Of a DNA stretch of 64,000 nt, positions 28,119 through 63,659 are shown piece by piece. The stretch comes from Chryseobacterium camelliae. GTDB taxonomy: Bacteria; Bacteroidota; Bacteroidia; Flavobacteriales; Weeksellaceae. The stretch covers positions 2,604,001-2,668,000 of the forward strand of contig NZ_CP022986.1 of the NCBI RefSeq assembly GCF_002770595.1. The letters run 5' to 3'. Positions within the stretch are counted from its first letter, which is position 1; every line of letters begins with the position of its first letter. The position numbers and the translations under genes are program-made. Below the pieces are notes generated by a model. It saw only the letters and a list, made by a program, of their open reading frames with translations. It had not been told where the DNA came from and did not search any database.

Positions 28119-28173
28119 TCCTCTGATCCACAAATAAAATTATGAACTTACATCTGCACATGCAGATTCAGTA

Positions 28174-28222
28174 TAAACTAAAATATGGCGGCGGAAAAAT
28201 TCCGCCGCCGTATTTTAGTTTA
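28174..28222. terminator. Long bidirectional hairpin terminator after rnpA
   Basis: Two 23-base arms around an AAA loop with a single mismatch (U-G on the plus strand). The G+C-rich core GGCGGCGG sits at the loop end and an A/T-rich base TAAACTAAAATA at the foot, which supplies T-rich tails both ways. It lies between convergent genes. Confidence 0.85.
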
Positions 28223-28260
28223 TTATCTATATAAGAATAATGGCGATCAAATAATCATGA

Positions 28261-58467: not shown

Positions 58468-58604
58468 AATCAAAAACGTGTTATGAAGGTTTTTGACCTA
58501 CATTTTATATTCTTTTAACATTAACCCCAAATAAAAAAGAACGCTATTAATAACAGAATCATCAAAATAGACATCTTCGATTTTAGATTGCGGAAATTAG
58601 TTTG

Positions 58605-58612
58605 TATTTTTG
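58605..58612 (+). promoter_or_regulatory. -7 element of the suf operon
   Basis: TATTTTTG, exact consensus, 29 bases before the sufA ATG. No IscR- or Fur-like operator was recognised in the 214-base gap upstream. Confidence 0.6.
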
Positions 58613-58640
58613 CATCATTAAATCATTCTAAATAAATACA

Positions 58641-58970
58641 ATGATAAAAGTATCAGATCACGCAAAAGAAAAAGCCATACTGCTCATGAGAGAGGATGGA
58701 TTTGACGCTTCTGAAGATTATATAAGGGTTGGGGTAAAAAGCGGAGGATGCTCCGGTCTGGAATATGTACTGAAATTTGACAATCAGAAAACAGATGCAG
58801 ACCAGGTTTTTGAAGATAACGGGATTAAAATCATAGTAGATAAAAAATCGATCCTGTATCTTGCAGGAACTACCTTGGAATATTCAGGAGGACTCAACGG
58901 AAAAGGATTTGTTTTTAACAATCCGAATGCAGCCAGAACATGTGGCTGCGGGGAATCTTTCAGCCTGTAA
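58641..58970 (+). CDS. sufA: A-type iron-sulfur carrier SufA
   Basis: Carries and delivers Fe-S clusters to client proteins. 109 residues with the three conserved cysteines of the HesB/IscA family in SGGCSGLEY (about 34-42) and CGCGESF at the C-terminus. First gene of the suf operon; it ends 4 bases before the left arm of the inverted-repeat element that separates it from sufB. Confidence 0.95.
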   Translation: MIKVSDHAKEKAILLMREDGFDASEDYIRVGVKSGGCSGLEYVLKFDNQKTDADQVFEDNGIKIIVDKKSILYLAGTTLEYSGGLNGKGFVFNNPNAARTCGCGESFSL

Positions 58971-58974
58971 AGGC

Positions 58975-59010
58975 TATTGAAAGATTCAGAGATTAAGAAA
59001 TTTAAAAATT
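58975..59010 (+). repeat. Left arm of the IVS-like inverted repeat
   Basis: Pairs with 59385-59420. The core GATTCAGAGATTAAGAAATT (58983-59002) is a perfect 20-base match to the complement of the right arm; the 8 flanking bases on each side match at most positions. It ends 2 bases before the enclosed gene's ATG. Confidence 0.9.
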
Positions 59011-59012
59011 AT

Positions 59013-59393
59013 ATGACTGTTTCGTTTGAACATTTCCCGGTTTATAAAAAGGCAATTTCATTTACAGTTGAAATTTTTAAAATTCTTGATGATGAAAATT
59101 TACAAAAAGAATTTTCTCTTAAGGAACAGCTTAAAAGAGCTACATTATCAATAAGCAATAATATTGCTGAGGGCTCGGAATATGGAAGCAATAAGCAATT
59201 AATCAGATTTCTTTGGATCGCCAAAGGGAGCTGTGCTGAAGTAAGAAATATGCTGTTTGTTTTATTCCGATTAGAGAAAATTGATGATAAGATTTTTCAT
59301 TCACTAAGTCATGAGTGCCTGGAAATCACAAAAGAAATTTATCATTTTATAAAATATCTTGAAAAGAGCAATTTAGATTCTAGAAATTCCTGA
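59013..59393 (+). CDS. Four-helix bundle protein (23S rRNA intervening-sequence / S23 family)
   Basis: 126 residues from the first ATG at 59013; the frame extends to a TTG at 58977, but that region is the inverted repeat. Family hallmarks are HFPVYKKAISFTVEIFKI, the helix LKEQLKRATLSISNNIAEGS, and RFLWIAKGSCAEVRNMLFVL. These are the conserved blocks of PF05635, small basic RNA-binding-type bundles found inside 23S rRNA intervening sequences and as Avd in diversity-generating retroelements. Here there is no rRNA or reverse transcriptase nearby. Base composition is far more A+T-rich than sufA or sufB. Molecular role unknown. Confidence 0.9.
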   Translation: MTVSFEHFPVYKKAISFTVEIFKILDDENLQKEFSLKEQLKRATLSISNNIAEGSEYGSNKQLIRFLWIAKGSCAEVRNMLFVLFRLEKIDDKIFHSLSHECLEITKEIYHFIKYLEKSNLDSRNS

Positions 59394-59420
59394 ATTTCTT
59401 AATCTCTGAATCTCTGAATA
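59385..59420 (+). repeat. Right arm of the IVS-like inverted repeat
   Basis: Complementary to 58975-59010, core 59393-59412. It contains the TGA stop of the four-helix gene at its left end and a short direct repeat (ATCTCTGA twice). It stops 4 bases before the sufB ATG and therefore covers the sufB ribosome-binding region. Confidence 0.9.
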
Positions 59421-59424
59421 CATT

Positions 59425-60873
59425 ATGAGTAAATACACAGAAGACGACCTAAGGGTTGATCTAGAAAATAAAAAATATGAATTCGGCTGGGAAACCCAGA
59501 TTGATTACGAAGATTTCCCCATCGGCCTGAATGAAGATATTGTCCGTGCCATTTCCGCTAAAAAGGAAGAGCCGGAATGGATGACGGAATGGAGACTGGA
59601 ATCATTCAGGATCTGGCAGAAAATGACGGAACCGGAATGGGCTAATATCAAATATGAAAAACCTGACTTCCAGGCCATCAGATATTATGCCGCGCCAAAA
59701 GTAAAACCGGAGCTGGGCAGCCTGGATGAGGTAGACCCTGAGCTGATCAAAACATTTGAAAAGCTCGGCATCAATATCGAAGAACAGAAGAGGCTTTCCG
59801 GAGTAGCTGTTGATATCGTTATGGACTCAATTTCCGTAAAAACAACGTTCCAGGATACGCTGGCTGAGAAAGGGATCATTTTCTGTTCCATTTCTGAAGC
59901 AATCAGGCACCATCCGGATCTGGTGAGGAAATACATAGGAAAAGTGGTTCCGCGAGGCGACAACTTTTATGCAGCGTTGAATTCAGCCGTGTTTTCAGAC
60001 GGAAGTTTCTGCTACATTCCTAAAGGCGTACGATGCCCGATGGAACTTTCTACCTATTTCCGTATCAACCAGGCGGGAACAGGCCAGTTTGAAAGGACAC
60101 TGGTAATTGCTGATGAAGGCAGTTATGTATCTTATCTTGAAGGGTGTACGGCACCGTCAAGAGACGAGAACCAGCTTCACGCTGCTGTTGTTGAACTGAT
60201 TGCCCTGGACAATGCTGAAATTAAATATTCAACGGTTCAGAACTGGTACCCGGGTAATGAAGAAGGAAAAGGAGGCGTATTCAATTTCGTAACGAAAAGA
60301 GGGCTTTGCGAGAGAAAAGCAAAGATTTCCTGGACGCAGGTAGAAACAGGTTCTGCCGTAACATGGAAATATCCGTCATGCATACTAAAAGGAGACGGTT
60401 CTATCGGTGAATTCTACTCTATCGCCGTAACGAATAACCACCAGTATGCCGATACGGGGACGAAAATGATCCATATCGGGAAAAATACCCGTTCAACCAT
60501 TATATCCAAAGGGATTTCGGCAGGGAAATCACAGAACTCCTACCGTGGTCTGGTCAAAGTAATGCCTTCGGCTAAGGGTTCAAGAAATTTCTCCCAGTGT
60601 GATTCCTTACTGATGGGCAATGAATGCGGAGCGCATACATTCCCATATATTGAAATCAAAGATCCTTCAGCACAATTAGAACACGAAGCTACCACTTCAA
60701 AAATCGGTGAAGACCAGATCTTTTACTGCAACCAGAGAGGAATTGATACGGAAAGAGCAATTGCCCTGATCGTAAATGGTTTCAGTAAAGAAGTTTTGAA
60801 TAAACTGCCAATGGAATTTGCCATTGAAGCCCAGAAACTCCTGGAAATTTCATTAGAGGGATCTGTAGGATAA
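59425..60873 (+). CDS. sufB: Fe-S cluster assembly scaffold SufB
   Basis: Scaffold subunit of the SufBCD complex where clusters are built. 482 residues with the beta-helix core: [39 protein letters not shown], and the conserved C-terminal [20 protein letters not shown] and [20 protein letters not shown]. It follows the IVS-like element and is 4 bases before a GNAT gene. Its translation initiation region lies within the right arm of that element. Confidence 0.97.
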
Positions 60874-60877
60874 AGAT

Positions 60878-61384
60878 ATGATAGCGACAGAACGGTTAAT
60901 TTTAAGGAAGCCCGAAAAAGAAGACTTTAAAAGGTTCTTTGAAATTAATAATGATCCTGAAACCAACAAACATAACCCAAGCGGGCCAATGAATCTGGAA
61001 AAAGCAGAAAGCACATTTGCAAAAATGCTTGAACATTGGAAAAAACACCATTTTGGGAGCTGGGCGATTGTTGAAAAGGATAATCCTGAAAACATTATCG
61101 GTTTTGGGGGTCTGAGCTATAAATTATATGGAGCGGAAGAAAAGCTGAATATTGGCTATCGTTTTGCTCCCGGGGCATGGGGAAACGGATATGCCACAGA
61201 ATTCATGAAAAAAGCTATAGATTTTGGATTGAATGACAGCAACAAAGAAGAAATATTCGGAGTTGTTCGTCCTGATAATGTAGCTTCCGTTAAAGTTTTG
61301 GAAAAGGCAGGAATGGCCCCAGTCGGAACACTAGATGATGTTCCCGGTCAACCTGAAAGTTTAGTATATAGAATTCAAAAATAA
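60878..61384 (+). CDS. GNAT acetyltransferase (RimJ/RimL-like)
   Basis: 168 residues of the GNAT fold: TERLILRKPEKEDFKRFFEI at the N-terminus, the acetyl-CoA motif YRFAPGAWGNGYATEFMKKA (about 90-109), and VVRPDNVASVKVLEKAGMA. Substrate unknown; relatives acetylate ribosomal proteins or small molecules. The gene is embedded between sufB (4 bases) and sufC (18 bases), which is not part of the usual suf operon, so it is a passenger or a new regulator of the pathway. A small hairpin ATTTG / CAAAT follows its stop. Confidence 0.92.
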   Translation: MIATERLILRKPEKEDFKRFFEINNDPETNKHNPSGPMNLEKAESTFAKMLEHWKKHHFGSWAIVEKDNPENIIGFGGLSYKLYGAEEKLNIGYRFAPGAWGNGYATEFMKKAIDFGLNDSNKEEIFGVVRPDNVASVKVLEKAGMAPVGTLDDVPGQPESLVYRIQK

Positions 61385-63603: not shown

Positions 63604-63659
63604 TTCCCTATAATCATAAAAGCACTTCGTCATTGAAGTGCTTTTATGATTATAGGGAA
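63604..63659. terminator. Long bidirectional hairpin terminator of the suf operon
   Basis: Two perfect 25-base arms around the loop GTCATT, lying between sufD and the convergent partial gene. The G+C-richer part is near the loop (AGCACTTC) and the foot is TTCCCTATAATC. It serves both directions. Confidence 0.88.

Follow-up and report, generated by a model that had tools for sequence, protein, structure and literature searches.

The locus between sufA and sufB in Chryseobacterium camelliae raises the question of why a gene for a four-helix-bundle protein, enclosed by a long inverted repeat, should stand within an operon of protein-coding genes in an arrangement otherwise known from the intervening sequences (IVSs) of 23S rRNA. 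In the following, the window is the whole 64,000-nt stretch that we analysed (G000:C1:2604001-2668000, from the 4.38-Mb single-contig genome of this strain, G000), and positions are those of the window unless a contig is named. The initial annotation had compared the locus to rRNA IVSs, and the comparison holds as regards the S23-type gene, the complementary ends and the sporadic presence. In addition, the Coxiella 23S IVS carries, upstream of its S23 gene, the heptamer GACAGAT three times in tandem plus a degenerate fourth copy, and is cleaved by RNase III in vitro; a mobility of IVSs aided by their ORF was proposed earlier, and the function of S23/PF05635 proteins is described as unknown (PMC4990558). 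A 23S rRNA IVS by location was discarded as an identity for the locus, which is not inside an rRNA gene and sits between the sufA and sufB ORFs; in the region 58600-59500 no known RNA family was found at its gathering score, and no rRNA family matched. The features of the locus are collected in Table 1.

Table 1. Features of the sufA/sufB locus, in window positions.
Feature	Position	Strand	Basis
sufA, upstream host gene (name by eye)	58641-58970	+	ORF, 109 aa
Left arm, degenerate tandem 8-mers in register: ATTGAAAG ATTCAGAG ATTAAGAA ATTTAAAA ATT	58975-59010	+	repeat and period analysis
PF05635 / TIGR02436 four-helix-bundle gene, 126 aa	59013-59393	+	ORF and profile searches
Right arm, 8-mer word inverted; overlaps the end of the PF05635 gene and its stop codon	59385-59420	+	repeat and period analysis
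sufB, downstream host gene (name by eye)	59425-60873	+	ORF, 482 aa

The two arms are 36 nt each and complementary at 31 of 36 positions. The repeat described in the initial annotation is thus real and non-random, its perfect core being 21 nt and not 20 as had been stated: the best inverted-repeat score was 23.5, and among 500 dinucleotide shuffles of 58900-59500 the highest score reached was 15.0. The geometry was checked on the sequence and the ORFs and is as had been described, with the left arm ending 2 bases 5′ of the ATG at 59013 and the right arm containing the TGA at 59391-59393 and ending 4 bases 5′ of the sufB ATG. The interior is A+T-rich, as had been remarked (29.9% GC in the coding sequence versus 43.3% in the window). 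Three inverted repeats with a span of at most 900 nt exceeded the threshold in the window, and the one at sufA/sufB is the sole one with a large loop; none was found in the sufC/sufD spacer. Two strong short-loop palindromes, at 63604-63659 (25 nt, perfect) and at 28173-28223 (24 nt, with a GC-rich core), are probably terminators. A GNAT-like acetyltransferase ORF (by eye) lies at 60878-61384, between sufB and sufC, where the related genome G108 has about 115 unaligned bases.

A property that had escaped the initial annotation is the composition of the arms: each repeats a degenerate 8-mer (ATTNAAAG-like) in tandem, the right arm with the same kind of 8-mer in inverted orientation.

The enclosed gene belongs to the family that had been proposed for it: it matches PF05635 (E 4.9e-28; 97.9 bits, cut-off 33.8) and TIGR02436 (98.7 bits, cut-off 24), and the solved relatives of its 126-aa product, 2gsc and 2rld, have five chains each. 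These models (PF05635 in Pfam, TIGR02436-type in NCBIfam) were the sole matches at the element; no transposase was found among them and no nuclease domain was seen, the latter counting against the reading of the locus as an element. PF05635 genes occur in 146 of the 148 genomes of the genus, with 1-18 matches per positive genome and six in G000. The median dN/dS is 0.10 among eight intact relatives at sufA/sufB and 0.06-0.10 in four location families of intact genes; intact PF05635 genes are therefore under purifying selection, while many copies are decaying. At sufA/sufB the gene is gained, lost and decays, yet the protein, judging from these ratios, would do something useful.

Each of the 146 genus genomes searched has a single sufB match at E 1e-100 or better, and 130 of these 146 loci, all with a sufA relative upstream of sufB, were covered upstream and compared. 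The sufA-sufB spacer is short (44-89 nt) in 100 genomes and long (151-498 nt) in 30. In the long spacers there are PF05635 genes of at least three subtypes, which differ in their arms, or else sequence that has decayed or was not identified; 16 of them retain an ORF of 115 codons or more, and 14 have none. The short spacers have no PF05635 gene. Sites without the gene, which the initial annotation had suggested looking for, thus exist in 100 of 130 genomes, and an outcome that it had named as refuting its proposal, namely the same gene in all relatives with no inverted repeat, did not arise; from this variation in gene and spacer it follows that the site has been gained, lost and worn down. 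Two relatives, G102 and G108, have the element of the window too, with a broken gene in G108. A significant inverted repeat (z of at least 2.5) is present in only 28 of the 100 short spacers, which counts against the element reading; TTTYAGA-type words are visible in several of these 100. Neither a transposition event nor a target duplication was seen, which also counts against an element; where gene-less spacers of other operons were compared (groES/groEL and three others, see below), they held other word arrays and gave no clean empty site.

Of the readings other than an element, the one nearest to the initial annotation is that of an IVS acting in mRNA, in which a stem kept by selection would be cut by RNase III, so as to split sufA from sufBCD, or would hide the sufB start. 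In its favour, an S23-type ORF is enclosed by complementary ends capable of a long stem, as in rRNA IVSs, and the arm stem can form in RNA according to the folding that had been called for, in which a 521-nt RNA of the spacer forms it with z -3.8. Against it, the arms of nine close relatives pair with their cognate partners no better than with swapped ones (30.2 versus 30.0 Watson-Crick pairs of 35), in a set of 9 of the 14 type-A arm pairs from which five with length changes or another register were left out. In the same nine relatives a double compensatory change occurs in only 1 of the 35 stem pairs, so the arms vary nearly without compensation, a result that the initial annotation had itself listed as speaking against its proposal. 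Among arm mismatches, 118 are wobble-compatible and 126 are transitions of the A-C type, hence with no G-U preference (112 of 167 arm pairs, with a score of at least 28 and identical ones taken once); this test has low power, because the control with terminator-like hairpins gave only 64 versus 45 (p 0.08).

We also considered whether arms co-vary by lineage within one location, which was seen only at sufA/sufB, where subtypes are mixed, and marginally at fadJ/fadA (4 members, p 0.04). No such co-variation appeared at moxR/DUF58, trpD/trpC, murE/mraY, purC/purF and recJ/nadD, nor in the small families sufB/sufC, carA/carB and groES/groEL; in five of the six families with at least 7 members, cognate arms were no better than non-cognate ones. 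Moreover, the mRNA reading has to accommodate the 100 of 130 spacers that have no gene and the 14 of 30 long ones that have no 115-codon frame. The gene being absent or broken at sufA/sufB in most of the 130 genomes, it is not a fixed suf regulator, and with hardly any covariation and no G-U preference the functional role in suf envisaged at first finds no support. Selection for an RNA stem is made less likely by these data, with a weak control for the wobble test; we regard the mRNA reading as unlikely.

The points in favour of the element reading come from other sites. The host is a protein operon, as the initial annotation had claimed, and suf is one of about a dozen such hosts rather than the sole one. 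In Chryseobacterium and Flavobacterium, about a dozen core operons have a PF05635 gene between two neighbours of the same direction (gene names by eye): sufA/sufB, sufB/sufC, trpD/trpC, murE/mraY, moxR/DUF58, recJ/nadD, groES/groEL, carA/carB, purC/purF, fadJ/fadA, fadA/acyl-CoA dehydrogenase and paaG/paaH. The element occupies the spacer from close to the upstream stop codon up to the vicinity of the downstream start codon. A position directly upstream of sufB was found for 36 of 136 loci, a fraction in which suf is over-represented since 80 of the 136 were retrieved with the protein of the window, and such loci occur in Chryseobacterium, Epilithonimonas, Cloacibacterium, Bergeyella, Flavobacterium and Capnocytophaga. 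At five loci (L185, L194, L200, L201 and L205, the last with a gene cut short) a second PF05635 gene, with a different word, lies 3′ of sufB. In Flavobacterium columnare the order gmk, four helix bundle gene, nadD looks like the same intra-operon arrangement; in a published table the four helix bundle gene is counted, together with the core genes beside it, among phage elements (PMC5524665).

Arms occur at other PF05635 loci too, where they are made of different words of 7 or 8 bases. Of 150 PF05635 genes, 97 had a clear arm pair, and the best period of these arms was 8 in 72 cases, 7 in 23 and 9 in 2; the self-identity of the arms was 0.64 at lag 8 and 0.53 at lag 7, compared with 0.25-0.43 at the other lags from 3 to 12. 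A best period of 8 or 7 in 95 of 97 arm pairs counts for the element reading. Precisely, a single degenerate word of 7-8 bases makes up both arrays of the element, which are inverted relative to each other and may or may not enclose a PF05635 gene. The left arm was best matched by its own right arm in 12 of 19 non-redundant loci (those left of 142 genes after a strict similarity filter) and had it within the top three in 16 of 19, while in the direct-orientation control the own arm was best in 3 of 19. An exact conservation of unit order between arms was set aside, since the identity of 0.863 was compared with 0.764 for units shuffled by column, a null in which registers were fixed and not re-optimised. 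Some families are poor in clear arm pairs (moxR/DUF58 5 of 25, recJ/nadD 2 of 7, carA/carB 1 of 4, groES/groEL 0 of 3), and this counts against the element reading.

Between different locations, arm similarity was 0.45-0.54 at a protein identity below 40%, 0.69 at 40-50%, 0.97 at 50-60% and 1.24 at 60% or more. Over 15 clusters (97 genes) the correlation between protein and word is weak (rho 0.25, with 256 of 5000 permutations as high), a further point against. The purC/purF genes and two fadJ/fadA genes are sisters and have TTAGAAG-type words in common.

Where one genome has the element, the same spacer of a close relative may contain another PF05635 gene flanked by other words, or an inverted array with no gene. 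At murE/mraY, the proteins of G000 and G102 are 96% identical, and that of G108, with a different word, is 25% identical to either; at fadA/acyl-CoA dehydrogenase, the proteins of G102 and G108 are 92% identical to each other, and that of G000, again with a different word, shares 57-58% identity with either. At groES/groEL, at aminotransferase/kdsB, at the site of locus L276 and at paaG/paaH, one genome has the gene (broken in the case of paaG/paaH) and another a gene-less inverted array, with different words (by eye) and flanking DNA that is 83-95% identical. Such a replacement of spacers could also be produced by ordinary homologous recombination between the flanking genes, which speaks against an element. 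In G108, a gene-less hairpin of ATTTAAA-type words (L300, G108:C1:3644162-3644228) lies 1.3 kb from murE/mraY, and the word of the murE/mraY copy differs from that of this nearby hairpin.

Words are also reused, both at separate sites of a genome and within a single operon. The word of the paaG/paaH copy (L006, the one with the broken gene) had 15+15 hits in its own genome versus 2+4 for a backward control, and 16 of these 30 hits fall at 3.305-3.312 Mb, where one operon, the paa operon, has them as inverted pairs in spacer after spacer; 7 of 9 spacers there carry the word (by eye). In the relatives, a AATGTAACAATGTACC-like word is found instead in 4 of 6 (G108) and 5 of 7 (G102) of the spacers compared, the comparison covering 7 of the 9 operon spacers, one of which could not be delimited in G108; of the remaining ones, one keeps the word of G000 in G102 and the rest have third words. 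Accordingly the paa spacers group by genome, with a similarity above that of 4986 of 5000 label swaps (14 as high), in an operon that was picked because the word hits clustered there. The word of the fadJ/fadA copy had 14+17 hits in its own genome versus 7+5 for the control and also builds the gene-less groES/groEL array, part of its hits belonging to a four-copy repeat. This repeat, a segment of about 64 nt with inverted TGTAAAA-type words, occurs in both orientations at about 1201754, 2440204, 3261091 and 3366140 of G000:C1 and looks like a dispersed repeat or the end of an element. A hairpin in every operon spacer was rejected as a general description: periodic inverted sites number 4 (G000) and 7 (G108) per 400 kb, with 1 and 1 in the shuffled controls, and 3 and 4 of them are word arrays (by eye), so that the overall density is modest.

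The association extends beyond the genus. In a phylum sample of 118 genomes, 90 had a PF05635 match, and from these we considered the best-scoring 30 loci, one per genome. Inverted repeats at z of at least 3 were present in 21 of the 30, relative to shuffles that preserve base content only, and words of 7-8 bases can be seen in most of them, one being G+C-rich and containing GCGAGCG. Both neighbours were read at 27 of these loci; the PF05635 gene has the same direction as the two of them at 22 loci, runs antisense to the pair at 1 and is mixed at 4, which also counts for the element reading. On plasmids, inverted arrays were found at 6 of the 8 loci examined (8 of 39 records), namely in Anabaena (cas6/cas4), Picosynechococcus (cas10/cmr3), two Nostoc, Geminocystis and Azospirillum; the exceptions, which count against the element reading, are Pseudanabaena, with direct heptamers, and Gemmatirosa, with none inverted. 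At three loci of cyanobacterial plasmids (L355, L356 and L357), PF05635 genes with short-word arrays around them lie within CRISPR operons (cas6/cas4, cas10/cmr3). In Nostoc edaphicum (L358), the PF05635 gene is antisense to both flanking ribonucleotide reductase genes, an exception to co-orientation.

Taking these results together, we consider the sufA/sufB locus as the gene-bearing form of an IVS-like, mobile or dispersing element that lives in the spacers between co-transcribed genes, with a probability of about 0.55. The movement, the binding by the protein and the cutting of RNA are what we infer. The PF05635 protein, pentameric in a solved relative, would bind the arrays of its own kind of word, whether as DNA or as nascent RNA, and would help them to spread to other spacers or to replace the arrays there; the gene-less arrays would be non-autonomous copies. 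Insertion between cistrons spares the host proteins, and therefore the element would be tolerated, as the IVSs of rRNA are. rRNA looks like one kind of address of this element family, with the known rRNA inserts as a special case.

Apart from the mRNA reading, the same data could arise with no mobility at all, if slippage made the words grow, fold-back template switching inverted them, homologous recombination swapped the spacers and PF05635 were an old resident. The words are indeed of low complexity, the location families are old (sufA/sufB is shared by Flavobacterium, Capnocytophaga, Bergeyella and Chryseobacterium), and the protein tree mostly follows location, with 19 label changes where the least possible number is 17 and with some sufA/sufB rows bearing a separate label. 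This explanation is quite unlikely in view of the recurrence of one word at sites far apart in a genome and within one operon, of the trpD/trpC genes, which nest with modest support within the Flavobacterium sufA/sufB genes and have the same word, and of the word arrays beside PF05635 genes in several phyla. A host regulation in which one word type per operon is the recognition site of a four-helix-bundle regulator tuning the nearby cistrons would suit the words along paa, the purifying selection in four families and the predominant co-orientation (22 of the 27 phylum loci), and is very unlikely given that words are replaced between close relatives, that the gene is lost at sufA/sufB in most genomes examined and that two different words stand within one suf operon (L194, L200).

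Known systems share parts of this picture. REP/RAYT and MITE systems have inverted repeats and dispersed gene-less copies. The element at sufA/sufB likewise has terminal inverted repeats and related gene-less copies, as DNA transposons and MITEs do, and differs from them in that no transposase family matched. Avd-type diversity-generating retroelements require a reverse transcriptase and template/variable repeats. For PF00078, the sole reverse-transcriptase model searched, there were 0 matches in G000 (3 in G102 and 1 in G108), so that a retroelement route would be without such a partner there, and a retroelement with an Avd-like adaptor, suggested by the stated resemblance of PF05635 to Avd (PMC10053308), was rejected. 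With the S23p-bearing 23S rRNA IVSs of Coxiella, Leptospira and Salmonella the element has in common the sporadic presence and the decaying genes; unlike them, its family has mRNA spacers as host, many sites, gene-less relatives and site-specific words.

A parallel for the replacement of words is the P6b stem of the Nostoc trnL intron, built of 7-base repeats of Class I (TDNGATT) or Class II (NNTGAGT), in which the class was switched repeatedly and independently at the same site (PMC4476775). In our case too, inverted degenerate words are replaced at one site between relatives, with a unit of 7 or 8 bases and in an operon spacer, whereas the Nostoc stem lies inside a tRNA intron and has no gene and, in the accessible text, no link to PF05635. 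GGGAATC and GGGGA(T/C)T heptamers are described in Xanthomonas and Nostoc, two Xanthomonas genomes having 70 and 75 convergent pairs at close spacing; the Nostoc arrays are mostly intergenic, with one inside the operon pecE-pecF, and their role is called open (PMC4692102). There they are treated as G-quadruplexes, and the words S23, four-helix and intervening do not occur in that text. TAACTGA heptamers are reported from Beggiatoaceae, Cyanobacteria and five Bacteroidetes (PMC4679880). Among the literature matches listed, in which subscription journals are thinly covered, no link between PF05635 genes and inverted word arrays in operons was visible.

On this basis we put forward, as a tentative idea that goes beyond the element reading of the locus, that PF05635 genes and short-word inverted arrays may be the halves of one unrecognised, cross-phylum class of operon-spacer elements, from which rRNA IVSs, the Nostoc intron stems and the cyanobacterial and xanthomonad heptamer arrays would descend, either tied to their sites or without the gene. 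The protein would then read its own word, with each subunit of the pentamer perhaps taking one copy, and would convert whole operons to it. If S23/PF05635 proteins and heptamer arrays are partners, the protein gains a defined and directly testable substrate, and the intervening sequences of rRNA become one address of a general operon-dwelling element rather than a ribosomal oddity. A change of word through most of an operon from one close relative to another would be an unfamiliar way for genomes to change, and it would act precisely where bacteria set the ratios of co-transcribed proteins.
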